Positions 8,851 through 24,119 of a stretch of DNA of 64,000 nt are shown here, piece by piece. The position numbers and the translations under genes were made by a program. Positions within the stretch are counted from its first letter, which is position 1, and each line of letters begins with the position of its first letter. The stretch comes from Alphaproteobacteria bacterium (GTDB lineage: Bacteria > Pseudomonadota > Alphaproteobacteria > Micavibrionales > Micavibrionaceae), in the NCBI GenBank assembly GCA_002401965.1, contig NVUR01000005.1, positions 1 through 64,000 on the forward strand, in the 5' to 3' direction. Under the pieces are notes generated by a model that saw only the letters and a list, made by a program, of their open reading frames with translations, had not been told where the DNA came from and made no database searches.

Positions 8851-8855
8851 AGATA

Positions 8856-10031
8856 ATGTTGCACTCTGAAATTATATTGCCTCATACGGATCATATTCAA
8901 AAACGATTAGAAATGATTGTTTTCGGAGAGGATTGGGGCGCACACCCCAGTTCAACCCAACATATTATGAAGCATTTGATGCACGATCATGAGATTGTCT
9001 GGGTTAATTCGTTGGGTCTGCGCCGCCCACATTTTAATGCACGGGACTTTAGTCGCGCACACAAAAAGCTGCGTAATATGCTAAGAAAGGTGGATGATGG
9101 TTCTGTTTGCGAAGAAGCAGATATAAATGTCCCCGATATTGTTCATCCGCGCGCGATTTCATGGCCTGGAAATCCAATAGCAGCGGCATTCAACAAATAT
9201 ATTTTAGGAAAGCAGTTAGACGACGTTATTAATCAACATAAATTTGATATGCCGATATTTTGGACATCATTACCCAGTGCGATTGATGTCATCGATAATT
9301 ACCCCAATCACAAGGTTATATATTATTGTGGTGATGATTTCAGGGCTCTGGCTGGTGTGGATCATAAGCCTGTTTCAAAAATGGAAGAACGCTTAGCCGA
9401 GCGGGCAGATTTAATTATTACGGTCAGTGAAACACTACAGAACCGTTTTCCTGCGGATAAGACAATTTTAATAGAGCATGGCGTAGATTATGAGCTTTTT
9501 TCCAACGAACACCCACGCGCCGATGATTTACCCAACCGCCCATTTATCGCGGGATTTTATGGATCTATCCATGATTGGCTGGATATGGATATCATTGCCG
9601 AAGCGGCGAAAAGTTGCCCTGAATGGGAGTTTGTTTTTATAGGCGATACACATATTGATATAGATTTTCTTACATCGCAAAAGAACATTAAGTTTCTTGG
9701 CGCGCGCCCACATCATGAATTACCGTCCTATGTTCAACATTGGCAGGTTTCACTTTTACCGTTTAAGGATTGCGAGCAAATCCGCGCGTGTAATCCTTTA
9801 AAACTGAGGGAATATCTTTCTGCTGGTCGCCCTGTCGTTACGACGGATTTTCCTGCGCTTCGGGGGTATATGGACAAGGTTTTGGTTATGAAGGATGCAG
9901 GCGACCTAATTCGTATTCTTAAAACGATAGGATCTGCCTCTACAATACCCAGAAAGCCAGATAGAGCAATGCAGTTCGAATGTTGGAATGTTAAAGCGAA
10001 AGTGGTAGAGCGTCATATTTTATCACTCTAA
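8856..10031 (+). CDS. Glycosyltransferase, GT4/GT1-like
   Basis: A 391-aa GT-B type glycosyltransferase. The N-terminal half begins with FGEDWGAHPSSTQHIM. The nucleotide-sugar domain carries GFYGSIHDWLD and NPLKLREYLSAGRPVVTTD, a typical donor-binding segment with the Glu of the EX7E region. It starts 5 nt after glmS, so it belongs to the same transcript. It probably adds a sugar during EPS repeat-unit assembly; donor and acceptor cannot be predicted. Confidence 0.82.
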   Translation: MLHSEIILPHTDHIQKRLEMIVFGEDWGAHPSSTQHIMKHLMHDHEIVWVNSLGLRRPHFNARDFSRAHKKLRNMLRKVDDGSVCEEADINVPDIVHPRAISWPGNPIAAAFNKYILGKQLDDVINQHKFDMPIFWTSLPSAIDVIDNYPNHKVIYYCGDDFRALAGVDHKPVSKMEERLAERADLIITVSETLQNRFPADKTILIEHGVDYELFSNEHPRADDLPNRPFIAGFYGSIHDWLDMDIIAEAAKSCPEWEFVFIGDTHIDIDFLTSQKNIKFLGARPHHELPSYVQHWQVSLLPFKDCEQIRACNPLKLREYLSAGRPVVTTDFPALRGYMDKVLVMKDAGDLIRILKTIGSASTIPRKPDRAMQFECWNVKAKVVERHILSL

Positions 10032-10036
10032 TTTTA

Positions 10037-10054
10037 TTGGCACAATTACTGCAA
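10037..10054 (+). promoter_or_regulatory. Putative sigma-54 promoter, strong match
   Basis: Reads TTGGCACAATTACTGCAA. GG at 10039-10040 and GC at 10051-10052 are 10 nt apart, and TTGGCAC is the full -24 consensus. This is the best of the four sites. It stands in the 73-bp gap before the lipoprotein/Wzz/glycosyltransferase unit. Confidence 0.68.
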
Positions 10055-10104: not shown

Positions 10105-10704
10105 ATGAGACAGGATCTGAGACAAATAAAACGATATTTACAGATTGCGATATGTTCGATCATGTCGCTGTGTCTCAATGGGTGTGCTGTATATCAGCGT
10201 AGCGCAATCGATTATTTACCAGAAACGGCCAAGTTTTTAATTGAAAATGATATTAACCGTAGTGGTGGAACTGAAAACGATCAGAATACGATAAGCGTTA
10301 CAGCGATGCTGTCTTCTATTTTAGGGGACGAAAAGGATATGCCTGAACAATTGTTTGATGATGTGCAATCGACCTTAATCGCCCCTATACCACAGTATAA
10401 ACCGATTTATGTTGTTCAAAATGAAGTTTTAGACGTTATCGACCTGACAATGGATGACCGTGTGCTAAAAAATATTAAACAGTATATTCAAAACCACAAT
10501 AATACACAAAACTGCGTCGAGATATCTATCGGACCACTTGAACAAGCAGAAAATACGCAAATCGCTTCGCTTAAAGCCATGGCAAAGGCCAGTGCGATTG
10601 GAAAAAAACTCAAAGAGCAATTTAAGGCGGTAAGCATAAAGTTTAATCCACTTTTACCCCGCGGCACGATTAAAATTGTGATTATAGGGAAAAAAGATGC
10701 GTAA
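10105..10704 (+). CDS. Hypothetical EPS-locus lipoprotein
   Basis: A 199-aa protein with an N-terminal signal and lipobox CLNGC (Cys at about residue 27), so probably a periplasmic or outer-membrane lipoprotein. The mature part is mixed alpha/beta in composition, and its C-terminal 80 residues (CVEISIGPLEQAEN...IKIVIIGKK) resemble an OmpA-like or secretin-type small domain only vaguely. I do not recognise the family. Its last 8 nt overlap the Wzz-like gene, and it is the first gene after the strong sigma-54 site, so a role in chain length or export is likely by context. Confidence 0.7.
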   Translation: MRQDLRQIKRYLQIAICSIMSLCLNGCAVYQRSAIDYLPETAKFLIENDINRSGGTENDQNTISVTAMLSSILGDEKDMPEQLFDDVQSTLIAPIPQYKPIYVVQNEVLDVIDLTMDDRVLKNIKQYIQNHNNTQNCVEISIGPLEQAENTQIASLKAMAKASAIGKKLKEQFKAVSIKFNPLLPRGTIKIVIIGKKDA

Positions 10705-12205
10705 TTTAATTCTAAAACGCCTGTTCTACATTGTGAATGCTGCGTGGCGACAGCGTTACGTGATTGTGATTCCTGTTTTGATTATGCCCGTTTTTGGGAT
10801 GATTATTGGTATGACAACGCCACGTAAATATGAAACATCTACAACGATCCTGATACAGGAGCCATCAATGCAAAACCCGTTTTTGAAAGATTTGATGGTT
10901 GATACCAACCTTAAGAAGCGTATGGCGTCGTTAAATGCCCTGGTTCATAGCCGTCATATCCTGACGGAGGTTGCAATAAAACAAGGCTTTATTAGCGAAG
11001 ATGAAACTGATCTTGCAAAAAAAGAAGAGGCTATTGATTATTTATCTAAAGCGTTGAAAGTATCATTGATTGGCAGTGAACTTGTGCGTATTGAATATGA
11101 GGCTGCGAAGGTTGAGGGCATGGTTGATACGCTTAACCTTATCACTCTGCGCTTTGTAGAGCGCGTGATCGCTCCGCAGCGTTATTCCATCTATAAATCC
11201 CGAGATTTCTTGGGCAAAGAGTTGGAAACACGCGAACAAAGTTTGCTCGAAGCAGAAGAAAAACTGGCGGTCTATAAATCTGATTTTGCAAGTGAGCTGC
11301 CTGAATTACATGCGCGCAATGTTCTTCGCTTAACACAGATAAAGGATGCTTTGGCGAAGCGACAAACAGCACTGAAGGGGGCGATGGCGCGTTACAAAAA
11401 TTTGAAGAAACGCGTATCACAGACAAATCCTGTGATAGGTAGAATTGAAGAACAGATCGTCAGTATGATGGGTGAAATGGCTGTTATGCGCGCGCGCTAT
11501 ACGGATCAGCACTCTAAGATCCGTGCTTTTAAACGGAATATAAAATCTCTGGAACATGAGCGCGCCCGTACCTTGGCGGCAGGTGAAAATATAAACATAG
11601 AAGATCTGGATCGTCTTTGGGATCGTGTATCGATGGTTGAGGGCGATAGTGGTGAAATGCCTTTACTCGTAGAGCAGCTGAAGCAGCTTCAGGTTATGGA
11701 AAATGATATTCAAGGGCTTGAGGAAGAGGTACTTTCCTTGCAAAAGGAATTTGAAGAAAACAGCATTAAAGTTCGGAATTTTGGCGTTCATGAAAAAGAA
11801 ATTACCAACTTACAACGCGATATTACAGTTAAACGCAACATTTACGAAGATTTAGCCAGCCGTCATCAATTGGCTGAGGTTACGGGTGCGTTGAGCAAAT
11901 TTGAGGAAAGTGACCGCGTTAAAATGATTGATCCGCCTTTTGTACCAACCAAGCCATCAAACTATCCGCTTATCCTTTATGTGATTGCAGGTGGAATTGC
12001 GGGCGGGGTTTTGGGTTGCGGTTTGGGGGTCGTACTGGATATTACCGACACGCGTATCTACACCGCCGACAAGTTAGAAAACATTCTGGAGGTCGCCGTT
12101 ATTGGCCGCATACCTTTACAAAAAGTACATGGATTTGATTCTTTGACCGGAGCGCTGGATTTTGGCGCATCCAATGAAAATAATTTACAAAAAGCGATAG
12201 CTTAG
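10697..12205 (+). CDS. Wzz/GumC-type chain-length determinant
   Basis: A 502-aa polysaccharide co-polymerase. It has TM1 at about residues 22-42 and a long periplasmic region rich in heptads (coiled coils about 165-260 and 320-400). A proline-rich PPFVPTKPSNYP motif precedes TM2 at about 420-447, the classic Wzz signature. A short cytosolic tail follows with no kinase domain. In the PCP-2 class the tyrosine kinase can be separate; the ATPase at 19414-20121 is the candidate partner. It would set EPS chain length together with the polymerase. Confidence 0.88.
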   Translation: MRNLILKRLFYIVNAAWRQRYVIVIPVLIMPVFGMIIGMTTPRKYETSTTILIQEPSMQNPFLKDLMVDTNLKKRMASLNALVHSRHILTEVAIKQGFISEDETDLAKKEEAIDYLSKALKVSLIGSELVRIEYEAAKVEGMVDTLNLITLRFVERVIAPQRYSIYKSRDFLGKELETREQSLLEAEEKLAVYKSDFASELPELHARNVLRLTQIKDALAKRQTALKGAMARYKNLKKRVSQTNPVIGRIEEQIVSMMGEMAVMRARYTDQHSKIRAFKRNIKSLEHERARTLAAGENINIEDLDRLWDRVSMVEGDSGEMPLLVEQLKQLQVMENDIQGLEEEVLSLQKEFEENSIKVRNFGVHEKEITNLQRDITVKRNIYEDLASRHQLAEVTGALSKFEESDRVKMIDPPFVPTKPSNYPLILYVIAGGIAGGVLGCGLGVVLDITDTRIYTADKLENILEVAVIGRIPLQKVHGFDSLTGALDFGASNENNLQKAIA

Positions 12206-12218
12206 AAAGGAAGCCATA

Positions 12219-13364
12219 ATGAAAATGAAAAATAAGGATATAAATAAACCCGTTTTTCTGGTTGTGCAGCATTTGCGTACCGGCGGTATTGAGGTGCTAG
12301 CTTTGAGCTTGCTGGATAAATTAAGTGGACAACGTGAAATTCACATTGTTGCGCTTGAAGGGGCAAAGGCCAAAGCATTTGAGGATTGGCCTGTTTTACA
12401 TGACTATCAAAGCTGTTTACATTTTGTGAATAAGAAAGAGGGGGTGTCTCTATTCGCATTGCTTAAGCTAACAGCACTTTTCTTGCGCTATAGACCTGTC
12501 GCCGTGCATACACATCATATTGGCCCAATGATTTACGGGGGGATTGCTGCGCGGTTATGCGCCGTACGTAACTTAATACATACAGAGCATGATGGTTGGC
12601 ACTTACAGAAGAATGCTCAATTACAAAGCAGGATGATGAAATGGTTAAAGCCGACTATGATCGCCGTTGCGTGGCATGTAGGTCAGTGCGTTGCTAAACA
12701 ATGTACAACGAAAATGCCGCATATTGTTCATAATGGTATTGATACCAAACATTTCTCACCAAGCCATAAAATGCTGGCACGGTTTTGCCAATATTTACCA
12801 CAAGCCCCACGTATCATCGGTTGTGCCGGACGTTTGGAGGAGGTGAAGGGACAACGATATCTTATCAATGCTTTACAGTATTTACCAGAAGATGTGCATG
12901 TTGCTTTTGCAGGTGATGGTTCGTTGAAGGAAGATTTGAAATCTTATACTAATGACTTGAATTTATCACATCGTGTTCATTTTCTTGGCCATGTTAACCA
13001 TATGCGCGGGTTTTATTGCGCGCTGGATGTGTTTTGCTTGCCCTCCTTGAATGAAGGGTTTCCTCTTTCTCCATTGGAGGCTCAGGCCTGTGGCACGCCA
13101 AGCGTACTTAGTAACGTGGGTGGTTGCGCCGAAGCATTATGCCCAGATACAGGGTTTTTGGCAGAGGCAGGCAATGTAGAAGAATTGGCCGACAAACTTC
13201 TTATGGCTCTGGAAAGAAAACAAGATCAATCACCACGTCAATTTGTCCTTGAACATTTTGATTTAAGTGAAATGGCCGCGCGTTATGATGAACTTTATGT
13301 GTCTTCGGCGCAACAGGATGCACAACCAACCACTATTATCACAGGAGAAATGAGCCATGTTTGA
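12219..13364 (+). CDS. Glycosyltransferase family 4
   Basis: A 381-aa GT-B retaining glycosyltransferase. The N-terminal region has LRTGGIE near residue 20 and HTHHIG, and the C-terminal donor domain has GRLEEVKGQ and NEGFPLSPLEAQACGTPSV, the E-x7-E motif of GT4. It sits 13 nt behind the Wzz-like gene with SD AAAGGA, and its end overlaps the next gene by 8 nt. It is expected to act at the cytosolic face on the lipid-linked repeat unit. Confidence 0.9.
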   Translation: MKMKNKDINKPVFLVVQHLRTGGIEVLALSLLDKLSGQREIHIVALEGAKAKAFEDWPVLHDYQSCLHFVNKKEGVSLFALLKLTALFLRYRPVAVHTHHIGPMIYGGIAARLCAVRNLIHTEHDGWHLQKNAQLQSRMMKWLKPTMIAVAWHVGQCVAKQCTTKMPHIVHNGIDTKHFSPSHKMLARFCQYLPQAPRIIGCAGRLEEVKGQRYLINALQYLPEDVHVAFAGDGSLKEDLKSYTNDLNLSHRVHFLGHVNHMRGFYCALDVFCLPSLNEGFPLSPLEAQACGTPSVLSNVGGCAEALCPDTGFLAEAGNVEELADKLLMALERKQDQSPRQFVLEHFDLSEMAARYDELYVSSAQQDAQPTTIITGEMSHV

Positions 13365-15195
13365 GAGCTTAACAACATTTGAAATAATTATTTTAACAAT
13401 GACGATGCTTAGCGGCTTTCTTGTTGTTTATTCGCACGTCATTTTTCCAATTTTTCTGAAAATACAATGTCGGAAGAATAGCCAAGGAACTGTAGCTCCA
13501 GCATTAATGTCAGACAGAAATCTACCAAGCATTACAATTCTTATTCCGGCGTATAACGAAGAATATTTTATTGCTGATAAAATCATAAATCTGGCGGCAC
13601 TTGAGTATCCATCAGATAAACTTAACGTGATTATTTATTGTGATGGATCTACTGACCATACAGCGTTAATGGCGCAGGCCGCTATGGATATAGAGTCATG
13701 CCACAATTTGAATATGACTCTTATTGAAGAGACGAACAATATTGGAAAAATTGCGGCACTAAATAAAATTATTCCTACAATAAAAACCGACATTGTTGCT
13801 TTAAGCGATGTATCGGCCTTACTTTCAATGGATGCGCTGCTAATTGCAGCCAAGCATTTTGAAGCCTCGCAAATCGGCTTTGTCGGAGGCACTTATGATT
13901 TTGCAGATTATGCCTCTGCGGGGGAAGAAATTTATTGGCGCTATCAGCGCAATGTGAAAAAGGGTGAAGCTGTTCTTGGTGCGCCTATTGGTTGTCATGG
14001 TGCATTTTATATTTTCCGCAAAGAACTCTTCAGAACGTTGCCAGCGGATACGGTGAATGATGATTTCATATTACCGATGGAAATATTAGGGCAGGGATAT
14101 AAAGGTATTTACGAACCTGAAATAGTGGCTCTGGAGCTGGAACAAGTTGAAACTAATCAAGATTTTAAACGTCGTATCCGCATTGCCATGGGAAATGTGC
14201 AGCAGGTTTTCCGCTTGCTGCACATTTTGCACCCAAAGCATAGGGGCGTTGCGATGAGCTTTTTCTCCGGCAAAGTTTTGCGCGCTTTCATGCCTATATT
14301 ATTGATGGTGGCTCTACTTGGTTCATTTATATTGATGCATGTTGACAACATTTATATCGCGGGATTTTTCGGAATGATATTTGTCGCGCAAATTATGGTC
14401 TACATGCTTGCATTGTTGAAGCCTATCTTACCGCAATATAAAATATTTGACGTTATTCATTATTTGGTAAGCGGGCATGTGGCTGGTTTATTTGGCTTGG
14501 TGCGTTATGCAACAGGTCAACATAATGGCAGATGGGAACGTGCTGTGCTTGGCAATACGGATGCTCATTATTCGCCGATGATCGTACGGTTTAGTAAACG
14601 CACTTTTGATATTCTGAGTGCCATTGGAGGTTTGATCGTCCTTGCGCCGCTTTTCCCGATTTTGGCACTGCTTATAAAGCTGGACGGTGCGGGGCCGGTT
14701 ATCTTTAAACAAAAACGTGTTGGTCTTTCAAACTCGAATTTCACTTCTTTTTTCTGGATGTATAAATTCCGTACAATGGTGGTGGATGCGGAGAAAATGA
14801 CAGGCGCAGTATGGGCGAAGAAAGATGACCCGCGCATTACACGCATGGGCAAATTTATGCGTAAAACCCGTCTTGATGAATTGCCACAGCTTTGGAATGT
14901 CTTGATTGGTGATATGTCTTTGATTGGCCCAAGACCAGAACGCCCAGAGCTTTACGGCAAATTGGAAAAAGCAGTGCCATTTTTCGCAGAACGTAATTTT
15001 GGTGTTCGCCCGGGGATCACAGGGCCAGCGCAAATTCACAATGGTTATGACGAGACAATAGAGGATGTACGTAATAAGGCGGCTTACGATCATTCATACG
15101 CTCTGTCTCTCAGCAGTTTCAAAAATTGGATTAGGGGCGATGCTCTGATCTTTTATCAAACCATCGGCGTTGTTGTCGGACGTCGTGGGCAATGA
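13357..15195 (+). CDS. Fused GT2 glycosyltransferase and monotopic phosphoglycosyltransferase
   Basis: A 612-aa two-enzyme protein. Residues about 45-290 form a GT2 family fold (ITILIPAYNEEYFI, YCDGSTDHT near 93-101, NDDFILPME near 230). Two or more membrane helices follow at about 310-365. Residues about 409-612 form a sugar-transferase/PGT domain (KRTFDILSA reentrant helix, GPVIFKQKRVG, YKFRTM, TRLDELPQLWNV, MSLIGPRPERPEL). The PGT part would start repeat-unit synthesis by loading a sugar-phosphate on undecaprenyl phosphate, and the GT2 part would add a sugar. Glycosyltransferase fusions to monotopic PGTs are known in the family. I see no frameshift, so the fusion appears genuine. Confidence 0.9.
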   Translation: MFESLTTFEIIILTMTMLSGFLVVYSHVIFPIFLKIQCRKNSQGTVAPALMSDRNLPSITILIPAYNEEYFIADKIINLAALEYPSDKLNVIIYCDGSTDHTALMAQAAMDIESCHNLNMTLIEETNNIGKIAALNKIIPTIKTDIVALSDVSALLSMDALLIAAKHFEASQIGFVGGTYDFADYASAGEEIYWRYQRNVKKGEAVLGAPIGCHGAFYIFRKELFRTLPADTVNDDFILPMEILGQGYKGIYEPEIVALELEQVETNQDFKRRIRIAMGNVQQVFRLLHILHPKHRGVAMSFFSGKVLRAFMPILLMVALLGSFILMHVDNIYIAGFFGMIFVAQIMVYMLALLKPILPQYKIFDVIHYLVSGHVAGLFGLVRYATGQHNGRWERAVLGNTDAHYSPMIVRFSKRTFDILSAIGGLIVLAPLFPILALLIKLDGAGPVIFKQKRVGLSNSNFTSFFWMYKFRTMVVDAEKMTGAVWAKKDDPRITRMGKFMRKTRLDELPQLWNVLIGDMSLIGPRPERPELYGKLEKAVPFFAERNFGVRPGITGPAQIHNGYDETIEDVRNKAAYDHSYALSLSSFKNWIRGDALIFYQTIGVVVGRRGQ

Positions 15196-15219: not shown

Positions 15220-15375
15220 ATGAAACAAATACTTTTAATCGCTCTAATCGTTTTATTACTTCCCAGTGTGCTGTTTGCATTCTGGATGGCGTTTGCAAAG
15301 CCGGAGATGCTGGACGCCGCAGATGATTATCCGGTTCTTTCTGAAAATAACGACGTAAAAGGAGACTTATCATGA
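15220..15375 (+). CDS. 51-aa membrane/secreted small protein
   Basis: A short frame starting ATG at 15220, preceded by GGGAGTAAAGATA. It encodes a 51-residue protein with one hydrophobic N-terminal segment (residues 4-26) and an acidic tail. Its TGA overlaps the start of the DUF1194 gene (ATGATGA region at 15372), which argues for translational coupling. It also provides the SD AAAGGAGA for that gene. I do not recognise a family. It could be a single-pass inner-membrane helper of the neighbouring VWA protein, or a signal-anchored peptide. Confidence 0.55.
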   Translation: MKQILLIALIVLLLPSVLFAFWMAFAKPEMLDAADDYPVLSENNDVKGDLS

Positions 15376-16250
15376 TGTATCGTAAAAACTTATTTTTGGG
15401 CTCTACCATAGCGTTATGCCTTATAACGGGATCATCGGCTTTTGCGGATGAAGATGTTGACCTTGAATTGCAGCTTTTAATTGACACCTCTGGCAGTATC
15501 AGCAGTTCGGAATATAATTTGCAAATGCAAGGGTATTCCAACGCCTTCCAAAACAGCACCATTCAAGATTCCATTTTGGATACGAGTAATGGAGCATACG
15601 GTAAGATTGCCATTCAAACCGTGATGTGGTCAAGCCAGGCAACACAACAAGCCATGACCAACTGGACATTACTTGACAGTGAAAGCAGTATCAACAGCTA
15701 CGCTGATACGCTTTACAATATGAGCAGGCCATTTACCGGCGCAACCTATAACGCGGAAGCATTAGACTTTGGGTCATCCCTGTTCTCTGATAATGGCTTT
15801 ACTGGAACACGTAATGTGATTGATATGTCCGGTGATGGCTATGGCTATGATTATATGTATGGAGATAATTGGTGGTTTAACGGCGGGGATACCTCTGACG
15901 CACGTGATAATGCACTGCTTGGCGGTATAGATACCATCAATGGTCTCACAATTACCTATGATTACGCTGAAGTTGGTGATTTGAACCTCACCAGTTGGTT
16001 CTCGCAAAATGTCATTGGCGGTACGGATGCCTTCGTTTTACAAGCAGGGGATTTCTCTGATTTCACTGTGGCATTGTCGCAAAAGCTGGAGGCTGAAATT
16101 GATGGCGGTTATATTCCAATCAATGCCATCGGCCCAGGTGAAGTTTATTCCGCGCCTGCGCCTTTGGCTGGGTCAGGCTTGCTTTCTATATTATGCCTAT
16201 GTTTTTACAGGCTTATGGGCTGGAAAAGAGACGATGTATTATTAAGCTGA
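15372..16250 (+). CDS. DUF1194 (VWA-like) secreted protein with C-terminal anchor tail
   Basis: A 292-aa protein with a Sec signal peptide ending near SSAFA. The DUF1194 domain is related to von Willebrand A. Its metal-site motif is LLIDTSGSISSSE (DxSxS), followed by VIDMSGDG and the family C-terminal pattern NVIGGTDAFV. After about residue 245 come APAPLAGSG, one hydrophobic helix (LLSILCLCFYRLMG) and a basic end (WKRDD). That tripartite tail looks like the PEP-CTERM/VPLPA-CTERM sorting signals found on many DUF1194 proteins. No exosortase or archaeosortase-like gene is in the window. A role in surface attachment or EPS association is inference. Confidence 0.82.
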   Translation: MMYRKNLFLGSTIALCLITGSSAFADEDVDLELQLLIDTSGSISSSEYNLQMQGYSNAFQNSTIQDSILDTSNGAYGKIAIQTVMWSSQATQQAMTNWTLLDSESSINSYADTLYNMSRPFTGATYNAEALDFGSSLFSDNGFTGTRNVIDMSGDGYGYDYMYGDNWWFNGGDTSDARDNALLGGIDTINGLTITYDYAEVGDLNLTSWFSQNVIGGTDAFVLQAGDFSDFTVALSQKLEAEIDGGYIPINAIGPGEVYSAPAPLAGSGLLSILCLCFYRLMGWKRDDVLLS

Positions 16251-16369: not shown

Positions 16370-16387
16370 TTGGCATCTCTTTTGCAA
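16370..16387 (+). promoter_or_regulatory. Putative sigma-54 promoter of the STAS/export unit
   Basis: Reads TTGGCATCTCTTTTGCAA. GG at 16372-16373 and GC at 16384-16385 are 10 nt apart, and both halves match well. The expected start site near 16397 leaves a 27-nt leader to the GTG start at 16424. A longer reading of the STAS frame beginning at the TTG at 16370 would start inside this element. Confidence 0.65.
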
Positions 16388-16423: not shown

Positions 16424-16753
16424 GTGAATGCTAAAACAATAGAAAAACAAGATATTAATTACGGAATTACTGGGTATTTCGATGCTCAGACTGTTTCTGC
16501 GCTGGAAGAAGATTTTCAAACGCTTGTCGAAGATAATAAAGGGCGACTGATCCTTGATCTTAGTGGCGTTGATTTTATCGACTCTTCAGGAATTGGCAGT
16601 ATCGTCTTCTTATATAAACGTCTTAAAGCACAAGAACGCGATTTGGTTTTAAGCGGTGTAAACGGGCAACCTGCGCGGCTTATCCAGTCCTTACGTGTTG
16701 ATAAAACTATTAAAACTAATTTTCTAAAGGAAAGTAATAATAATGACTCATAA
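16424..16753 (+). CDS. STAS-domain anti-sigma-factor-antagonist-like protein
   Basis: A single STAS domain of 109 aa if translation starts at the GTG at 16424 (SD AAGGAGA at 16411). The phosphorylation-site motif IDSSGIGSI and the preceding LILDLSGVDF are intact. Such proteins bind an anti-sigma/HATPase kinase when unphosphorylated and are released when phosphorylated on the Ser. The obvious partner in the window is the HATPase-REC-PP2C protein at 20109-21647. Placement between a sigma-54-type promoter and the export genes suggests the partner-switch output acts on EPS synthesis or secretion. The gene ends 8 nt inside the next one. Confidence 0.85.
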   Translation: MNAKTIEKQDINYGITGYFDAQTVSALEEDFQTLVEDNKGRLILDLSGVDFIDSSGIGSIVFLYKRLKAQERDLVLSGVNGQPARLIQSLRVDKTIKTNFLKESNNNDS

Positions 16754-17126
16754 TTTATTCAAATTATATGGGGTCTCGATTGTAACTCTTTCTTTATGTG
16801 CTGGGTGTTCAAGTTTCTATTGGCCTCAACACGGTCATGGCGGTATTGCAGAAGGTCGTCCGCATATGGTGCATTGGCATTATGAACGCCATCAGCTCGA
16901 TTTAATCAAGATGCAAATTACAGATGTGCGGCAGGATATGCATATCTTACGTCACAATGATGCCGATAAATATCATCCTGCGCTGATGCACGATATCGAG
17001 ATGCAAATGATCTTGGTGGAGCGTGAATTTGAAGGACATTTCTATAAGGATACAGAGAATAACCTTATCAAGGTACAAAACCTGCTGATACGGCTTCAAA
17101 AAAAGATGGAAAAACATCAAATCTAA
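16743..17126 (+). CDS. Hypothetical lipoprotein, His-rich and helical
   Basis: A 127-aa protein with signal and lipobox LCAGC (Cys about 22). The mature part begins with aromatic and His residues (FYWPQHGHGG). It continues as a long predicted helix (residues about 45-125), heptad-like and rich in Met, His and Glu. I do not recognise the family. It overlaps the STAS gene by 11 nt and precedes the SLBB export protein by 25 nt, so it is probably part of the export machinery or its periplasmic support. Confidence 0.7.
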   Translation: MTHNLFKLYGVSIVTLSLCAGCSSFYWPQHGHGGIAEGRPHMVHWHYERHQLDLIKMQITDVRQDMHILRHNDADKYHPALMHDIEMQMILVEREFEGHFYKDTENNLIKVQNLLIRLQKKMEKHQI

Positions 17127-17151
17127 GGGCAGGTACGGTGGGAGAGATATA

Positions 17152-19401
17152 ATGAAAAACATAAAAAACCGAATACAGCGTTTTAAAGAGATTAAATTTT
17201 GTACATTGCTTATTCTTTGTATTCCTTGTCTCTCTCTTATGACAGCGGCATTTGCGGATACCTTTGACTCGGTTAAAATTGTCTTGCTTGAGGAAACTGT
17301 ATATGACGCGCAAATAGATGCTGTACGCCTTGCACAGCCTCCAATAACACTGCGCCCTGGTGATATGCTTGTCATCGATTTTCCTGGTGAGGCGAGTTTC
17401 AATGAGCCATTTCAAATTGATAGTGAAGGGTTTTTGGTATTACCTGAAATCGGGCGTATGCAAATCCATGGACAAACAATAGAAGAAGCATCACAAATTA
17501 TTAGCCTTGGCCTGTCTTCTGTTTATAAGGATATTGATCGTATATCTGTTGTTCTGCAAGAGCGGCGCTTGCTGGTTAATGTATTGGGTTATGTGAAAAA
17601 TCCAGGGCCTGTAAACTTAACAGGCCAAGCAACAGTGCAGATGGCCATTAATCAAGCTGGTGGTTTAGAGCAGGGCGCGCAGCTTGATAAAATTCAGGTG
17701 CGCCGTAAGAATAAACGTAATGAAATGAGTGTCTTTGTTTTTGATTACAAGAGATACCTTGATACTGGTAACTTATCAATTATGCCGCGGTTAAAGCCTT
17801 TGGACACTATTTTTGTGCCTGCATCCCCTTTGACGGGTAATGTGCAGGTTGAATTTGATGCACGGACTCTTACCGCCGCAGGGGACGCGGGAGAGAGCAA
17901 AGAAGCGATCAAGGTTTTTGGTGAGGTTCATCGTCCTGGTATTTTCAAATATAAAGAAGGCTCGTCTCTGGTTGATATGTTGATGCGTGCAGGCGGAGTA
18001 ACGCGTTATGCCGGAGTAGAGCAAATTCGTGTGATTGTCGGTGGCGTGCCACAACCCTTTAATATGCGGGAATATATGGATACAGGTGATCCGGCGTTGA
18101 TGCCTCAAGTTGGTAAAGGCGATACGATTTTTGTACCGCAAATGAGTGACCAAATTAAATTAGGGGCGCGTACGGTTTATGTTATTGGTGAAGTTAAAAT
18201 ACCCGGTGCTTATGAGACAAAAGAGGGCGCAACATTCTTTGATATCCTTGCCAATGCAGGTGGTCCGACACGATTTGCAGAGGTGCGCCAGATGCGTATC
18301 CTTCGTAAAGACGGTAGCGTTGATCCGTTTGATTTTCAGGCTTATACGGAACAAACCGTTGAGGGAATGACGTTGCCCCAGATCAACCCTGGTGATGCGA
18401 TTTTAGTGCCTGAAAAAACCGATATGAATGAGAAATCATGGCTTAAAATTTCACCCGATCATGCGATCATGATTGTTGGAGCAGTACGTAGGCCGGGTCG
18501 GTATGAATGGGCTGATGAGATGAGCCTTCTGGATTTAATGGCGCATGCAGGTGGTCCCGTACCGACCGCCGATACGTCGCGGGTTAAAATCATGCCGCGT
18601 CCAAATGAGAGCAATCAAAAGCCTGTATATTTTGATTTCGGAAAATTCATGAATGAGGGTGGCAGTATAGACGATGTTCCTGCCCTTGATGCGGGATACA
18701 CTATTGAAGTGCCGGAGCTTCCCAGAGATCCGAATGATAACAGATCACAATGGATACGACAGGAAAGTCAACGCTCTATTTATATCATGGGATCAGTCGT
18801 TGCGCCGGGGCGTTATGCTTTTAACGAAAATTTGAACTTCCTTGATATCTTGGCACAAGCGCAAGGTCCGACAACACAGGCAGATTTGGAGCATATCCGT
18901 ATCTCTCATCGTAAAGAAAAAGGAACACGTGTTACGAAAGTGAATCTTGCACTCTATTTTGAAACAGGGGACGATAGCTTACTTCCCCAAGTGAAGCCCG
19001 AAGATGTGATTTATCTGCCGGATCAAAATCGTGCATGGTTGCAAAAACCAAAAGAGCAGACTGTTCGTGTCTTGGGCGCGGTTGGTGCGCCGGGGCGTTA
19101 TGAGTTTAACAATTCGATGACTATCCTTGATCTTCTGGCCGAAGCAGGTGGTCCGCGATCAGATGCATTGGAGGAGAAGATTGTTGTTGTAAACGTTGTT
19201 GATGGCAAGCCAAAAGCGCAGCTTTTTAATCTGATAGATTTCGCGAAAAGCGGTGATTACAACAAATTACCCGTTTTGCGGGTTGGTGACACGGTGTACG
19301 TCCCTGATGAAAGCCAGAGCGCCCGCGCACAATTTAGAAATAATTTATCGGATGTGATTAGTGTTGTGAATTTGGTACGCACACTGACTACGGGATTTTG
19401 A
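17152..19401 (+). CDS. Polysaccharide export protein with six SLBB domains (Wza-like)
   Basis: A 749-aa secreted protein with signal peptide ending AAFA-D near residue 36. A polysaccharide-export (PES/Poly_export) domain covers about 60-140 (LRPGDMLVIDFPG, DSEGFLVLPEIG). Six SLBB units follow, recognised by the repeating V-x-G-x-V-x-x-P-G motif near residues 144, 257, 344, 441, 545 and 640. Wza itself has two to three SLBB units and a lipobox; this protein has no lipobox Cys at the cleavage site. It should form the periplasmic/outer-membrane conduit for the EPS. The C-terminal helix (NNLSDVISVVNLVRTL) could be the membrane-spanning part. Confidence 0.87.
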   Translation: MKNIKNRIQRFKEIKFCTLLILCIPCLSLMTAAFADTFDSVKIVLLEETVYDAQIDAVRLAQPPITLRPGDMLVIDFPGEASFNEPFQIDSEGFLVLPEIGRMQIHGQTIEEASQIISLGLSSVYKDIDRISVVLQERRLLVNVLGYVKNPGPVNLTGQATVQMAINQAGGLEQGAQLDKIQVRRKNKRNEMSVFVFDYKRYLDTGNLSIMPRLKPLDTIFVPASPLTGNVQVEFDARTLTAAGDAGESKEAIKVFGEVHRPGIFKYKEGSSLVDMLMRAGGVTRYAGVEQIRVIVGGVPQPFNMREYMDTGDPALMPQVGKGDTIFVPQMSDQIKLGARTVYVIGEVKIPGAYETKEGATFFDILANAGGPTRFAEVRQMRILRKDGSVDPFDFQAYTEQTVEGMTLPQINPGDAILVPEKTDMNEKSWLKISPDHAIMIVGAVRRPGRYEWADEMSLLDLMAHAGGPVPTADTSRVKIMPRPNESNQKPVYFDFGKFMNEGGSIDDVPALDAGYTIEVPELPRDPNDNRSQWIRQESQRSIYIMGSVVAPGRYAFNENLNFLDILAQAQGPTTQADLEHIRISHRKEKGTRVTKVNLALYFETGDDSLLPQVKPEDVIYLPDQNRAWLQKPKEQTVRVLGAVGAPGRYEFNNSMTILDLLAEAGGPRSDALEEKIVVVNVVDGKPKAQLFNLIDFAKSGDYNKLPVLRVGDTVYVPDESQSARAQFRNNLSDVISVVNLVRTLTTGF

Positions 19402-19413
19402 GGTGAAAGTGAT

Positions 19414-20121
19414 ATGATTCCTATCGCGATACATGAAAAAGCGGTTCAAAATACCTTCTATAAAATCCAAAGAGAGGGTATGAGCAGCATTGCTGTTACC
19501 TCCGCACACAGGCATGAGGGTGTTACGACCTTTGCTTATGCTTTATCGCGTCGCGCGGCAACAGGGGGGATGAGAGTGTTATTGATTGACTTGAATTTTA
19601 TGCATCCAGGGCAAAGTCAATCACTTGCGCTGGAACATCAAAATTGGAGTCCAAGTGGAGATATTAAAGAGGATAAAATTCAAAGCATTTCGAATACCAA
19701 TCTTTCTATATTGAGCGCGCCGCATAATGTGAAAGATACGTGGCCATTTCAAGATCAGAAAAAAATACATCAAATGCTGGATCGTTTAAATACGGAATAT
19801 GATCTTGTGATTGCTGATATGCCGAGTATTCTTGAGCCTGAACATGAAATTCAAGTTGAAATTTTATGTGCTGCTTTTGATTCGACGTTGATTATGGCTT
19901 TGTCTGGAAAAACGATTGAGACGGAGATTACCCGGATGAAAAAAATATTGGATATTGCCGAGGTCAATATTTTAGGGGTTGTGATGAATGACCAATTTAC
20001 ACCAACGCTTGTTGAGGAACTTAAGAGGCAGCTTGATAAATTCACACTACGATTTCCGCGTATTATCGCGTTTTTGAAATGTAAAATCGAACAGAACGCG
20101 TTTTTAAATCAATCTCTTTGA
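19414..20121 (+). CDS. CpsD/CapB-like ATPase (BY-kinase homologue) with degenerate P-loop
   Basis: A 235-aa MinD/BY-kinase superfamily protein. The fold markers are present: SIAVTSAHRHEGVTTFAYAL at the P-loop position, RVLLIDLNFMHP at Walker A', and YDLVIADMPS at Walker B. The Walker A Lys (GKS/T) is replaced (HEGVTT), Walker A' has Leu after Asp, and there is no C-terminal tyrosine cluster. It is therefore probably not an ordinary tyrosine autokinase and may be a non-catalytic partner of the Wzz protein at 10697. It starts 12 nt after the export gene. Its 3' end overlaps the convergent phosphatase gene by 13 nt. Confidence 0.8.
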   Translation: MIPIAIHEKAVQNTFYKIQREGMSSIAVTSAHRHEGVTTFAYALSRRAATGGMRVLLIDLNFMHPGQSQSLALEHQNWSPSGDIKEDKIQSISNTNLSILSAPHNVKDTWPFQDQKKIHQMLDRLNTEYDLVIADMPSILEPEHEIQVEILCAAFDSTLIMALSGKTIETEITRMKKILDIAEVNILGVVMNDQFTPTLVEELKRQLDKFTLRFPRIIAFLKCKIEQNAFLNQSL

Positions 20122-21647
20122 AGTAAGATAAACAGCGTATCATCATTTGGTGCAGAATTGGTTTGCTTTGAGAAGTAATTCCAAATTTCGGTGGCGGCGT
20201 TATTAAGTTCTGTGCTGTGCTGTGCTTTTATGTGTTTTTTCATGTTACGTTCATGTACCTCCATAGCATCGGTATTTATACCGACCTCCATCAGACCATC
20301 CGTATAGAGCATCAGGCGTTCACCAGCCTTTAGGTTTAAAGTGGTACTGCTGTAACTTGCTTGTGGATCAAGACCAGGGATTGCACCATCTATTTGAATT
20401 TCGCTTAATCCTGCTTCGTTTTGTAATAATGGAAGAGGGTGACCGGCGGACGCTATTTTTAGTGCGCTACCTTTGAATATTGTCAGAATTTGTGCGGTTA
20501 AAATTGTTTTTTCACCAATTTTGTCTGTTTGCAGAAAACGGGACAGGGCCGTTAATATTATGCCCGGGTCTTGAACGTCGCTTTGTGCGGATAAAAAACC
20601 GTTTAGATACCCTATGAAGCTATGGCTAAAGAATTTTGCTTGCGCGCCATGTCCCATAATATCCATTACAACGATGTGATCGCAATTATCGCCTTTAAGG
20701 TGCAGAACGATATCGCCGCCACCAGCCTCCGCCGCTTGCCATTTCAAAGCCATGTTGTAATCGCCGATTTTATCCGGTAACGCGGGGGAGAGTATCGACG
20801 TGATATCTTTATCTAACCGCTCTCCTATAATGCGTTGATCTTGTGATGCTTTGCTGAGTGTTCGTTTAATTATCTTAAGAAGGTTTTCTTTTCGCACTGG
20901 TTTTGTCAGAAAATCATTTACGGGTAAATTTTCAGCGGTTTTTGCGGTAAGATTTTCTGGCGTTCCTGTCATGAAAATAAACGGAATTAAGGCTAAATCC
21001 TTACTTTTTTGTAAGGTCAAACAAAAATCAACACCATTGCCATCCTGCATGATGACATCACATAGAATAAGATTAGGGGGGGATTCTGTTTTATTCAGCC
21101 ATTCCATCGCAGATTGGCCTGATACAGCCTGCTGAACGCTATAGCTTGTCGAGATATACAGTGTCAGCAGGTCAAGCTGCGCCGAATCATCATCAATAAT
21201 TAGTACAGATGGTTTTTGTTGCAGAAATGGGGAGGGGGCGGACAGGCTGTAATGATTCCATTCTTCCATACGCGTGTATGTGAAATCGGTGAAATCACGT
21301 CCAGCCAAGAATAATCCTATGCCGCTTGTTTCTAAAACACCATGTTTCATCGTTGCGCTTTGTTCTTTCGATGCCTGATGTTTTGTTTCAAAGTTTTTAA
21401 AGGCAAAGCCATCATCTATAAGTTGGAAAAGCAACTTATTTCCGTGTATATCCATTAACACTTTGAACGCAGTTGGCGCTCTATTCGTATGTTTCAGTGC
21501 ATTCGTGAAGATTTCAGACGCACATAGCAAGAAAGGGTCTTGTTCGCTTTCACAATATCCTAAACGGAGAAGACAGACCTTTAAATCAACATGAATGTCT
21601 CTGATGGACTTTGCGGATGCTTCGTATGTTTTTTCTAAGAGGCGCAT
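20109..21647 (-). CDS. HATPase - receiver - PP2C/SpoIIE phosphatase regulator
   Basis: A 512-aa protein with three domains. Residues about 1-135 are an RsbW/SpoIIAB-like ATPase (N-box EIFTNALKHT, DDGFAF, SGIGLFLAG). About 146-265 is a CheY-like receiver (VLIIDDDSA, ILCDVIMQDG with acceptor Asp, KP near 255). About 295-510 is a SpoIIE-type PP2C phosphatase (GGGDIVLHL, MDIMGHG, LYTDGLME, NDDTLF, metal-binding Asp kept). The same polypeptide carries the kinase and the phosphatase that could act on a STAS protein, gated by receiver phosphorylation. The likely substrate is the STAS protein at 16424. No stand-alone sensor kinase is visible in the window. Confidence 0.9.
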   Translation of the reverse strand: MRLLEKTYEASAKSIRDIHVDLKVCLLRLGYCESEQDPFLLCASEIFTNALKHTNRAPTAFKVLMDIHGNKLLFQLIDDGFAFKNFETKHQASKEQSATMKHGVLETSGIGLFLAGRDFTDFTYTRMEEWNHYSLSAPSPFLQQKPSVLIIDDDSAQLDLLTLYISTSYSVQQAVSGQSAMEWLNKTESPPNLILCDVIMQDGNGVDFCLTLQKSKDLALIPFIFMTGTPENLTAKTAENLPVNDFLTKPVRKENLLKIIKRTLSKASQDQRIIGERLDKDITSILSPALPDKIGDYNMALKWQAAEAGGGDIVLHLKGDNCDHIVVMDIMGHGAQAKFFSHSFIGYLNGFLSAQSDVQDPGIILTALSRFLQTDKIGEKTILTAQILTIFKGSALKIASAGHPLPLLQNEAGLSEIQIDGAIPGLDPQASYSSTTLNLKAGERLMLYTDGLMEVGINTDAMEVHERNMKKHIKAQHSTELNNAATEIWNYFSKQTNSAPNDDTLFILLQRD

Positions 21648-21740: not shown

Positions 21741-23180
21741 ATGTCCCAGATTTTAATTGTAGAAGATGACAAAAACATGGCCGCTTTGTTTGAGGAATTC
21801 CTCAAAAAAGAACCCTATAAAATCACGATAGTGCCAAATGGTCAGAGTGCTTTGGATGCTCTGGGTAATTCCTCTTTCAGTGCGGTTTTGCTTGATCTTA
21901 AATTACCAGATATGGAGGGTTTTCAAGTCCTTAAGTATATTAACGATAAGGCTATGGGATGCGCGGTTGTTGTTGTGACAGGGCAAGGTTCAATGGGTAA
22001 TGCAATTGAGGCCATGAAATTGGGTGCGCGTGATTTTCTAGTAAAACCGACAGATAAAAACCGTTTGGTGACGACACTTAGGAATGCGCTGGAAAATCAA
22101 GAGCTACAGCACGTTGTGGAAACGTATCAAAAGAAAATTGATCTTCGTGATTATTGTGGCTTTATCGGATCATCACTTCCAATGCAAGAGGTTTACCGTA
22201 TTATTGAGGCGGCGTCCTCCAGTAAGGCCAGCGTATTTATCACGGGGGAAAGTGGTACTGGTAAAGAGGTCTGCGCCGAAGCGATACACACACAAAGTCA
22301 GCGTAAGAACAAAACTTTTTGCGCGATTAACTGTGCGGCTATTCCACGGGATTTAATGGAATCCGAAATTTTTGGTCATGTGAAGGGCGCATTTACAGGC
22401 GCGAACGTCGATCGTGATGGTGCGGCTTCACGCGCGCATGGCGGTACATTGTTTCTGGATGAGATCGGAGAGATGGATTTTGATTTGCAAACTAAGCTCT
22501 TGCGTTTTGTGCAAACTGGAACGTTTATGAAAGTAGGGGGCAGCAAAGAAATTAGTGTTGATGTACGTATTATTTGCGCCACCAATCGCAATCCGATGGA
22601 GGAAGTACAAGCAGGACGTTTCCGAGAAGATCTTTATTATCGTCTTCATGTATTACCAATTCATATGCCGCCATTGCGTGATCGTGACAGTGATATCATT
22701 CAAATTGCCGCATTTTTTCTTAAAACCCATGTCGCAGAAGAAAATAAGAAATTTGAAGAATTTGATGAAGATGTGCGAGCAATCTTTATGGCCTATGATT
22801 GGCCAGGTAATGTGCGTCAACTACAGAATGTTGTCCGCAATATCGTGGTTCTAAATGACGGCGAGGTTGTTTCCGCTAATCTTTTGCCTGCGCCGCTCAA
22901 TGATATTACGCCTGATTATGTACCTGCCAAAATAAAGATGCCAACACAGTCTGTGTTACAAACCGCTATTCAGAGCGCACCGCAGATAAATACAGCCTCC
23001 ATACTTGGTGAAACACCTGCGACATTAGTGCGTATGGATGCGTTGGAGCGTTTAGCCATTGAAAATGCTATTCATGTTTGCAAGGGCAGTATTCCTGAGG
23101 TTGCACATTATTTAGGGCTTAGTGCGGCAACGATTTATCGAAAAAAAGCGGTATGGGATAAGGACAACGCTGTTCATTAA
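21741..23180 (+). CDS. NtrC-family sigma-54-dependent response regulator
   Basis: A 479-aa enhancer-binding protein. The receiver covers about 1-120 (ILIVEDDKN, LLDLKLPDMEG, phosphoacceptor Asp). The AAA+ domain covers about 145-385 (GESGTGKE Walker A, the sigma-54 contact loop GAFTGA, GGTLFLDEIGEM Walker B, arginine-finger region REDLYYRL). A Fis-type helix-turn-helix lies at the end (EVAHYLGLSAATIYRKK). The ATG at 21741 was preferred over an in-frame TTG at 21723 because MSQILIVEDD is a normal receiver start. It is divergent from the phosphatase gene and is the natural activator for the four sigma-54-type promoters at 3938-16385. Confidence 0.93.
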   Translation: MSQILIVEDDKNMAALFEEFLKKEPYKITIVPNGQSALDALGNSSFSAVLLDLKLPDMEGFQVLKYINDKAMGCAVVVVTGQGSMGNAIEAMKLGARDFLVKPTDKNRLVTTLRNALENQELQHVVETYQKKIDLRDYCGFIGSSLPMQEVYRIIEAASSSKASVFITGESGTGKEVCAEAIHTQSQRKNKTFCAINCAAIPRDLMESEIFGHVKGAFTGANVDRDGAASRAHGGTLFLDEIGEMDFDLQTKLLRFVQTGTFMKVGGSKEISVDVRIICATNRNPMEEVQAGRFREDLYYRLHVLPIHMPPLRDRDSDIIQIAAFFLKTHVAEENKKFEEFDEDVRAIFMAYDWPGNVRQLQNVVRNIVVLNDGEVVSANLLPAPLNDITPDYVPAKIKMPTQSVLQTAIQSAPQINTASILGETPATLVRMDALERLAIENAIHVCKGSIPEVAHYLGLSAATIYRKKAVWDKDNAVH

Positions 23181-23191
23181 AATAGATCATT

Positions 23192-23560
23192 TTATTTTAT
23201 GCCTTCCCGTAAAATCTCCAAACTTCGCATACTTAAAATCTGAAGTTGTTCTATTTTTTCGTCAAAAAATTCATTCTTAAAAGGTTTGGCATATTCTATC
23301 GCACGGCAAACAACCTCAAGCTTAACTGCACCATACGTCGCAGCAGATGTCCCCAAAGTGTGTGCTTCAAGCTCTACCTCTGAAAAGCGATTCTTGCCAT
23401 AGGCTTCTATAATTCGATGTGTACGTGCGTCACAATCGTCAATAAAGCGATGAAGAAAATCATTGACCGCTGTCGCACCAATTGCGTCGACCAGTGCGTG
23501 CAATATGCTTTCATCAATAAGATCCTGATCTAAATCAGTATTAAACTTAAATTCACTCAT
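23192..23560 (-). CDS. Hpt-domain phosphotransfer protein
   Basis: A 122-aa histidine phosphotransfer protein. It is all-helical with the signature EAHTLGTSAATYGA; His67 is the phospho-acceptor. The canonical Lys-Gly after HTL is changed to Gly-Thr. The ATG overlaps the last codons of the receiver gene upstream (ATGAGTGA), so the two are translationally coupled and probably partners. The frame extends to a TTG 18 nt upstream, which I did not use. The sensor that feeds it is not in the window. Confidence 0.82.
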   Translation of the reverse strand: MSEFKFNTDLDQDLIDESILHALVDAIGATAVNDFLHRFIDDCDARTHRIIEAYGKNRFSEVELEAHTLGTSAATYGAVKLEVVCRAIEYAKPFKNEFFDEKIEQLQILSMRSLEILREGIK

Positions 23561-23945
23561 CAGCAAAATACCCCACAATACGGTTATTAAGGTTATTAAA
23601 GTTAATTGGTTTGGTTAAGTATCCATCCACACCAGCAGAGCAGGCCGTTTCAAAATCTCCGCCAGTGCGCTTAGAAGTGAGCATGAACACGGGAACATCT
23701 TTTATTTTTCTGTTTTTACGTAAACGAAGCAAGAATTGTAGTCCTGAAAGTTCCGGCATTGCCCAATCTAAAATAATCATATCAGGCTTGTTTTTTATCG
23801 CCTGCTTTAGTGCTTTCGTAGAGCTTTCGAAATAGCGTGTCTTAAAGCCACTTTTTTCATCCAGATAACGGCATATCATACCACCGATTAATGGATCATC
23901 GTCAACTATCATAATGTAATATTTTTTAACCATTATATCGCTCAT
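23553..23945 (-). CDS. Single-domain response regulator (CheY-like)
   Basis: About 130 aa forming one receiver domain and no output domain: IMIVDDDPL acidic pocket, MIILDWAMPELSG with acceptor Asp, MLTSKR, and LTKPINF with the conserved Lys-Pro. The start is taken at MSDIMVKK (23945); MVKK at 23933 or an upstream ATG at 24002 are alternatives, and none has a strong SD. It is coupled to the Hpt gene. It likely acts as a phosphate carrier or protein-binding switch. Confidence 0.85.
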   Translation of the reverse strand: MSDIMVKKYYIMIVDDDPLIGGMICRYLDEKSGFKTRYFESSTKALKQAIKNKPDMIILDWAMPELSGLQFLLRLRKNRKIKDVPVFMLTSKRTGGDFETACSAGVDGYLTKPINFNNLNNRIVGYFADE

Positions 23946-24066
23946 CTCATTATATAGGATGAATTTGCAATTGCTGTGCCAAATAATATATTTATAATCC
24001 ATTGTAAAACAATGATACTTTAAAAGTACTGTAAGGTGTTTTCTTAATTTGAGAATGATATTGATA

Positions 24067-24119
24067 AAAGGTTATAGATCGCTCTGGAAATCTCTGAATA
24101 TTGAGCATACATAACCTTT
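24067..24119 (-). terminator. Nested inverted repeat after 24118 gene
   Basis: AAAGGTTAT and ATAACCTTT (24067-24075 with 24111-24119) pair, with an inner GCTC/GAGC pair. On the minus strand the outer stem is followed by TTATC. It overlaps the stop end of the gene at 24118, so it is a possible but weak terminator. Confidence 0.3.

Follow-up and report, generated by a model that had tools for sequence, protein, structure and literature searches.

A probable SypA/SypE-type partner switch in a syp-like polysaccharide locus of a Micavibrionaceae bacterium

The STAS protein, the SypE-like protein and the genes around them

The DNA analysed here, called the window throughout, is a stretch of 64,000 nucleotides from an alphaproteobacterium of the family Micavibrionaceae (contig NVUR01000005.1 of assembly GCA_002401965.1, positions 1 to 64,000 of the forward strand), and our subject is a pair of its genes, one encoding a small STAS protein and the other a protein that joins a HATPase, a receiver (REC) and a PP2C phosphatase domain. 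An earlier reading of the sequence alone (the sequence-only reading) had described these two proteins as a compact partner switch lying on both sides of a set of export genes, and the gene coordinates agree with this arrangement. The two are named below after their likeness to SypA and SypE of Vibrio fischeri.

The SypA-like STAS gene (16424-16753, plus strand) starts with GTG at 16424, with AAGGAG seven bases 5' of it, and encodes a one-domain protein of 109 amino acids, identified by its Pfam STAS match (67.6 bits, cut-off 22.6) and by alignments. In the alignment, its phospho-acceptor serine, Ser54, corresponds to S56 of SypA and is intact within FIDSSGIG (the DSSG site), and Y64-K65-R66, part of a YKRL motif at 64-67, is the counterpart of Y66-K67-R68 of SypA. 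A sigma-54 -24/-12 promoter of the STAS-export operon, a perfect match to TTGGCAY-N5-TTGCW, lies 5' of the gene (TTGGCATCTCTTTTGCA, 16370-16386, plus strand), so that the description of a free STAS protein with an intact serine in a sigma-54-driven export unit holds. A second perfect site (TTGGCACAGCAATTGCA, 23966-23982, minus strand) lies 5' of a receiver-Hpt gene pair; two perfect sites in the window compare with 0.11 expected and were seen in 1 of 100 shuffled windows, and RpoN is encoded in the genome. A possible promoter with one mismatch, 5' of the operon for the polysaccharide co-polymerase (PCP; 10037-10053, plus strand), is weak alone, because chance explains the number of matches at a looser setting (32 sites with at most two mismatches found, 32.45 expected). 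One-mismatch sigma-54-like sites also occur at 62232-62248 and 62624-62640 (both plus strand), near the right end of the window and outside the locus.

The SypE-like protein (20109-21647, minus strand, 512 amino acids) has its HATPase domain at residues 13-129, its receiver at 148-261 and its PP2C domain at 324-511, an assignment based on Pfam, invariant residues, a structure model and a tree. Pfam gave SpoIIE at 93.1 bits and Response_reg at 68.0, while HATPase_c_2 reached 26.7 bits in a single scan (cut-off 27.4) and 30.1 in a search of the genome; all three families were matched at E <=0.001 by 33 of 33 aligned exopolysaccharide (EPS)-linked proteins, the window's included. Invariant in these 33 proteins are E45, N49, D78 and G111 of the HATPase domain (N-box, G1, G2), D153, D197 and K249 of the receiver, and D312, D329, D450 and D502 of the PP2C domain. 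These matches and the kept catalytic residues bear out the claim that an RsbW-like kinase, a receiver and a PP2C phosphatase are joined in one chain. The AlphaFold model (mean pLDDT 86.6, pTM 0.57) found the REC-PP2C protein RssB of Pseudomonas as its best fold match and Rv1364c, which has RsbU and RsbW domains, as its seventh, the latter being the only RsbW/SpoIIAB chain among the 50 fold matches listed; by sequence, the N-terminal part matched RsbW at E 0.016. Haemoglobin chains that the N-terminal domain matched at E 5e-4 were set aside as chance hits, and no match to the SypE-like protein turned up among viral contigs.

The export genes between the two begin with a small protein in the SypB position (16743-17126, plus strand), which carries a lipoprotein-like signal by eye, matches no Pfam family and is 29% identical to its counterpart gene in Plesiomonas and 24% to the OmpA-type gene of an Aliivibrio-like locus (L166). 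It is followed by a SypC-like Wza-type export protein with SLBB repeats (17152-19401, plus strand; Poly_export and SLBB), 51-62% identical to its counterparts in the seven syp-like loci compared, and by a SypD-like protein (19414-20121, plus strand) with the fold of a bacterial tyrosine (BY) kinase, which has lost the Walker-A lysine (HEGVTT), has no tyrosine tail and is a predicted pseudokinase. The 3' end of the SypE-like gene overlaps the SypD gene by 13 bp. Further right lie a SypG-like sigma-54-dependent response regulator (21744-23180, plus strand; Pfam, 50% identity to Aliivibrio-like SypG), a free Hpt protein (23192-23578, minus strand; Pfam Hpt) and a free receiver protein (23553-23945, minus strand; Response_reg), the likely start of which is within a longer open reading frame (ORF), 3' of the promoter. 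The free Hpt protein resembles ORFs in the SypF position, with 31% identity over 121 residues to a 755-residue ORF in locus L174 and 30% to a 150-residue ORF in L166. In L166 itself (about 7386-9690), two ORFs of 609 and 150 residues occupy the SypF position, against a single ORF of about 755 residues in related loci, which may reflect a break or a split gene.

To the left of the STAS gene, all on the plus strand, are a Wzx gene (4076-5557), a Wzy/ligase-type gene (5545-6957), a glycosyltransferase conserved in syp-like loci (8856-10031), a small protein 5' of the PCP gene (10105-10704), which is like a Plesiomonas gene in the equivalent place by position alone, a SypO-like PCP, or chain-length protein, with Wzz and GNVR matches, no AAA/BYK family and no kinase domain (10697-12205), a SypP-like glycosyltransferase with 42% identity to its Plesiomonas counterpart (12219-13364) and a SypQ-SypR fusion that Pfam resolves into a family 2 glycosyltransferase (GT2) and a polyprenyl sugar transferase (PGT; 13357-15195). 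A DUF1194 gene (15372-16250, 171.6 bits) stands between the fused sugar transferase and the STAS gene, and a profile made from this single protein matched none of 82 other syp-like loci in the available flanking sequence. The C-terminus of its product (PAPLAGSG, a hydrophobic helix and a basic end, by eye) resembles exosortase-type sorting signals.

Relation to syp loci, partners in the genome and origin

In V. fischeri, SypE and SypA belong to a SypG-driven polysaccharide locus, with S56 as the SypA site and no sigma target known (PMC4517449, PMC10120452). SypE is a response regulator with serine kinase and serine phosphatase functions; SypA is phosphorylated at S56 and inactivated by unphosphorylated SypE, the phosphate is removed by signalled SypE, and unphosphorylated SypA promotes the Syp polysaccharide, evidence for an anti-anti-sigma role not having been found (PMC4517449, PMC8256260). 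K67 and R68 of SypA are essential, R27 is needed for control by SypE, and V. parahaemolyticus and V. vulnificus are without SypE (PMC4517449).

The window was compared with several such loci. A Plesiomonas plasmid carries, in one direction, genes for a small protein, PCP, a glycosyltransferase, GT2, PGT, STAS, a small protein, an SLBB protein, a BY kinase and SypE, and the nine BLAST-matched genes from PCP onward are 29-56% identical to those of the window. In a Vibrionaceae-like family, 202 of 296 genomes gave a STAS match at E <=1e-15, and 12 loci were taken; three Aliivibrio-like ones (L166, L168 and L172), whose species we infer, serve as close stand-ins for V. fischeri. Their 105-residue STAS protein adjoins SypB-C-D-E-G and fits 22 of the 23 published SypA residues, the odd one being position 84, with Gln against Asn in the published text. 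Identities between the window and L166 are 53% for Wza, 50% for SypG, 47% for Wzy, 36% for STAS, 30% for SypE and 27% for the BY kinase.

Two wider samples were used. The first (the named loci) came from a scan with three EPS-linked STAS queries over 84,980 species, each represented by a single genome, and consists of the best 80 of at least 174 confirmed relatives, from Photobacterium, Vibrio, Endozoicomonas, Pseudoalteromonas, Colwellia, Nisaea, Elstera, Rhodospirillaceae and Hyphomicrobiales among others. These loci cannot measure motif conservation, because the scan found them with FIDSSGI-like or VFLYKR-like STAS peptides; fairer in this respect is the second sample, an even draw across the phylum (398 genomes), which gave 13 SypA-type STAS matches at >=76 bits, the window's included. 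Among the 65 named loci that extend at least 9 kb downstream, 42 gave a SypE match, and SypE with a single STAS is the common form. In Nisaea (L037/L073, L070) and in L104, a Rhodospirillaceae bin, there are two STAS genes, the first at the head of the export genes and the second beside SypE; pairing could therefore differ in those loci, where a three-part switch is possible.

In the genome itself (2.09 Mb in 54 contigs, 86% complete), one STAS match and one SpoIIE-type PP2C match were found, both the window's. HATPase_c_2 occurs in five places, and the SypE-like protein is its only match on the contig, in agreement with the earlier statement that no separate anti-sigma gene is in the window. 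Three of the other places are histidine kinases (L018, L019, L020), and the fifth, on contig C49 (L016 925-1890), encodes a REC-HATPase_c_2 protein of 321 residues, for which no partner STAS or PP2C was found in the genome besides the window's. By eye this C49 protein has RsbW-like motifs, and it adjoins a hybrid histidine kinase. A full rsb-type operon elsewhere in the genome, the finding named in advance as contrary to a switch of this kind, was thus sought and not found, within the limits that the assembly is 86% complete and that this lone protein exists. No separate RsbW kinase gene for the STAS protein was found in the genome searches; for sigma genes in the window the check was partial, with 10 of 35 right-half ORFs scanned with Pfam and 25 judged by their first residues only.

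The window shares with the V. fischeri syp locus a one-domain STAS protein with the same phospho-serine and YKR helix, a SypE with the HATPase-REC-PP2C order and intact sites that groups in a tree with EPS-linked SypE, a SypG-type sigma-54-dependent regulator with a sigma-54 site 5' of sypA, and the gene set A-B-C-D, O-P-Q-R, Wzx and Wzy. It differs in that SypE is inverted, SypQ and SypR are fused, a small B protein stands in place of an OmpA protein, a free Hpt and a free receiver replace SypF, a DUF1194 gene lies between PGT and STAS, R27 is not kept and the host is an alphaproteobacterium. The scv loci and the V. vulnificus rbd locus are of one gene family with the window's locus, V. parahaemolyticus and V. 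vulnificus differing by having no SypE. With SpoIIAA/SpoIIAB and RsbV/RsbW/RsbU the window has STAS, RsbW-like and PP2C domains in common, but here kinase and phosphatase share one chain with a receiver, a sigma factor partner was not seen, and the separate RsbW kinase and cognate sigma factor that accompany the STAS gene in Rsb/SpoIIA systems were not found in the genome searches and in the partial check for sigma genes.

Some observations speak against equating the two systems. SypE is inverted in the window, unlike in V. fischeri (the two genes are on opposite strands in 8 of the 44 named loci that have SypE); no gene for a SypF hybrid kinase adjoins the locus, which has the free Hpt and receiver instead; in the alignment a Ser occupies the place of SypA R27; SypE was not found in the available flanks of 23 of the 65 named loci mentioned above, yet the STAS serine is kept there; and the C49 protein is another RsbW-like candidate in the genome. 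R27 is not treated as SypA-defining, because the Plesiomonas and Nisaea STAS proteins are also without Arg at that place in the alignment. On balance, we consider it very likely that the STAS and SypE-like proteins form a SypA/SypE-type partner switch on polysaccharide in a syp-like locus, a conclusion that covers the four steps set out below and leaves the target aside. The sequence-only reading had proposed a switch acting on EPS synthesis and not on a sigma factor, which fits this evidence, and had called it unusual, which it is not, V. fischeri SypA/SypE being of the same kind. The window is rather a member of a kind already known, because syp-like (scv) loci have been described from 28 genera, two of them alphaproteobacterial (Elstera and Terasakiella), with horizontal transfer and, in some, a scvN-scvO fusion (PMC8941931); the words 'STAS' and 'tyrosine' do not occur in its main text.

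The locus was most likely gained from outside, its right border alone being mapped. None of the 94 other genomes in a set of 95 relatives, several of them incomplete, has a SypA-type STAS at E <=1e-12, and the four other STAS matches at that threshold (G028, G072, G081, G068) read YKH or LLK at the SypA YKR place. Ten genomes of the same genus have a yebC match; in the four that were compared across the site, one of them 95% identical in YebC, yebC, the receiver gene at 24690 and the gene at 24118 are kept, and beyond these the genes are unlike the window's first 34 kb. The right border therefore falls between 23983 and 24117. GC content is 0.40-0.46 across the window, and the locus does not stand out.

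Pairs of STAS and SypE-like genes also occur in the window's own order. In the relatives set, 13 other genomes gave a SypE-like match at E <=1e-20, of which 12 were read and one was left out (G089, on a 4.2 kb contig); the STAS gene directly adjoins the SypE-like gene in 11 of these 12 loci, and none has a Wza or BYK match in the available flanks, L033 having a glycosyltransferase match about 9 kb off. In a quick SypE tree, made from 48 of 70 rows after removal of 22 near-copies, 11 of the 12 rows from the order cluster together, and the window stands on the opposite side with the EPS-linked rows (SH-aLRT 99), on a long branch, so that the tree gives its side and not its exact sister. That the window pair is one of these two-gene units was rejected: five aligned STAS proteins of the order have no YKR, no Wza or BYK match lies beside any of the 12 loci, and the units fall on the other side of the tree. 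The one order row on the EPS side is L022 (G028), where the STAS gene is on another contig and reads YKH, and a single glycosyltransferase match is the only EPS gene recognised beside it. In L022 (2279-3815), from the same family as the window, two overlapping ORFs take the place of one SypE-like gene, the first for a HATPase protein and the second for a REC-PP2C protein.

SypD and its company with the STAS gene

A BYK-family gene lies 3' of STAS, on the same strand, in all 69 named loci with at least 4.5 kb of downstream sequence, and in 67 of these a Wza gene starts within 2.5 kb of STAS; seven named loci with no BYK match have 0.5-3.4 kb of downstream sequence. A SypD-type BYK gene was likewise present in 13/13 SypA-type loci of the even draw, nine by profile (>=140 bits, the next match being at 95) and four by reading of the locus, and the Walker lysine was in none of the 13 proteins. 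The corresponding STAS proteins keep [YF]KR in 13/13 cases and the phospho-serine in 11/13. The two without it, G426 (L274, DPSG) and G479 (L275, DASG), keep [YF]KR and the BYK gene and have no SypE in 6 kb downstream, so that, to judge from the sequence, their STAS proteins look as if naturally locked on. Four weak STAS matches of the even draw (50-53 bits; G161, G302, G277 and a second one in G160) read DSSGLG without YKR and adjoin HATPase/SypE-like ORFs, with no BYK gene in the 8 kb read. In G141 (L259 4494-5927), STAS is followed by a small exported-looking protein and a BYK pseudokinase gene, and no Wza gene separates them. DSCG replaces DSSG in 26 of the 80 named loci, mostly of Photobacterium (e.g. 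L045, L048, L050), the first serine being kept.

We then considered the proteins in the SypD position as a set of 88, with 76 from 83 loci and 12 from the Vibrionaceae-like family, a set that includes many near-copies and one Nisaea contig twice (L037, L073). The Walker-A lysine is present in 6/88 and absent from 82/88, the window's included, against 49/50 control BY kinases that have it, a contrast partly built in, because the search for controls used a canonical-kinase model and so favoured intact proteins. At most two tyrosines occur in the last 25 residues of 87/88 SypD-position proteins, while the Walker-B Asp is kept in 86/88 and the Walker-A' Asp/Glu in 87/88. A quick tree was made from 54 of these 88 proteins and 49 of 50 control kinases (L225, the one control without the lysine, and 34 SypD near-copies or odd ORFs were left out); in it, the 54 SypD-position proteins form one side of a branch (support 100), with two changes of lysine state. 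The model of the window's SypD (pLDDT 89) has CapA1B1 and Wzc as its best PDB matches, both consistent with a BYK fold.

BY pseudokinases are already known as PCP partners, namely EcpK/EpsV in Myxococcus and HfsB/HfsA in Caulobacter (PMC12004946; the word 'STAS' does not occur in its main text). The window's SypD is like them in being a stand-alone BYK fold that lacks the catalytic lysine and the Tyr-rich tail, with a PCP that has no kinase domain. It differs from EcpK, in which all three Walker motifs are lost, by keeping the Walker-B and A' acids. A statement that SypD is a pseudokinase or the target of SypA, or that BYK and STAS keep constant company, was not found in the literature searched, which left most subscription journals outside. 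The class of BY pseudokinases is thus not new, and its constant company with a STAS switch is the part that we did not find in print.

Proposed mechanism, target and meaning

By analogy with V. fischeri, the switch most likely works in four steps. A phosphorelay ending in the free Hpt protein (23192-23578) would charge the receivers of SypG and SypE. Phosphorylated SypG, with sigma-54, would transcribe the STAS-export operon and the REC-Hpt pair, whose sites are seen in the sequence and whose use we infer. Unphosphorylated SypE would phosphorylate Ser54 of the STAS protein through its HATPase domain and so inactivate it, and phosphorylated SypE would dephosphorylate it through its PP2C domain. 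Unphosphorylated STAS would finally act post-transcriptionally, permitting polysaccharide production.

As for the target, we put forward tentatively that in syp-type loci tyrosine autophosphorylation, the usual control of PCP, was lost and that a serine partner switch took its place: polymerisation and export would be licensed when unphosphorylated STAS binds to the PCP/SypD complex. Binding would be through the YKRL-bearing STAS helix, to a complex whose BY kinase has lost its catalytic lysine and its tyrosine tail. In favour of SypD are the BYK gene 3' of STAS in all the named and even-draw loci counted above, the G141 order without Wza, the loss of the Walker lysine, the single clade in the tree, and the two STAS proteins that look locked on beside a kept BYK gene. 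Mirror-tree analysis of two locus sets gave BYK-PCP partial correlations of 0.38 and 0.54, the highest for BYK in both sets and in line with a PCP partner. This proposal meets several difficulties. The mirror-tree values for STAS-SypD are -0.02 (50 loci) and 0.24 (37 loci), which leave SypD alone unsupported as the target; the six lysine-keeping SypD-position proteins are all from Colwellia (L109, L112, L113, L115, L116 and L117); 11/50 control BY kinases likewise have at most two tyrosines in their last 25 residues; nucleotide binding by SypD may remain, because the Walker-B and A' acids are kept; and the bias of the controls bears on the lysine contrast. Among the six Colwellia loci, SypE is in the available flank of L112 only.

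We lean slightly towards a SypA-like switch that shares the four steps and has another target than SypD, such as PCP alone, a sugar transferase, Wzy or a factor outside the locus. The STAS-PCP correlations are 0.35 (50 loci) and 0.07 (37 loci), so that the mirror-tree favours this pair in one of the two sets, and GT2/PGT lies directly 5' of STAS in 39 of the 80 named loci, some with upstream sequence that ends early; the mirror-tree column for the sugar transferase looks unreliable. Against this, GT2/PGT is elsewhere in many loci, and BYK stands 3' of STAS in every named and even-draw locus counted above (69/69 and 13/13).

Very unlikely, in our view, is that STAS and SypE are not partners, with SypE acting instead on a STAS protein that the 86% complete assembly lacks. 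The second STAS beside SypE in Nisaea and L104, and the adjacent SypE-STAS pairs in 11/12 loci of the window's order, would suit such a reading, but only one STAS was found in the genome, no STAS gene adjoins SypE in the window, and SypE with a single STAS is the usual form of the locus. Very unlikely too is a canonical Rsb-type switch in which STAS antagonises an anti-sigma factor encoded elsewhere and acts on transcription: the protein does match SpoIIAA/RsbV chains, with the anti-sigma antagonist family just below cut-off, and C49 does encode a lone REC-HATPase_c_2 protein, but the genome has no other STAS or SpoIIE-type PP2C, the STAS gene is within the export operon and has the SypA-type YKRL, and no anti-sigma role was found in V. 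fischeri (PMC4517449).

In conclusion, a SypA/SypE-type switch on polysaccharide, the reading that we prefer, would be extended by this locus to one more alphaproteobacterial lineage, in a different layout (an inverted SypE, a free Hpt and a free receiver) that offers a natural variant beside V. fischeri. V. fischeri is a squid symbiont, and for what SypA acts on, a question of the squid-Vibrio field, SypD together with PCP is offered as a candidate. The grounds for this candidate are the loss of the catalytic lysine in the clade that accompanies SypA-type STAS, and the natural variants without the serine. If true, the PCP/SypD reading would name the target of SypA, and partner switching would directly control a membrane assembly machine.

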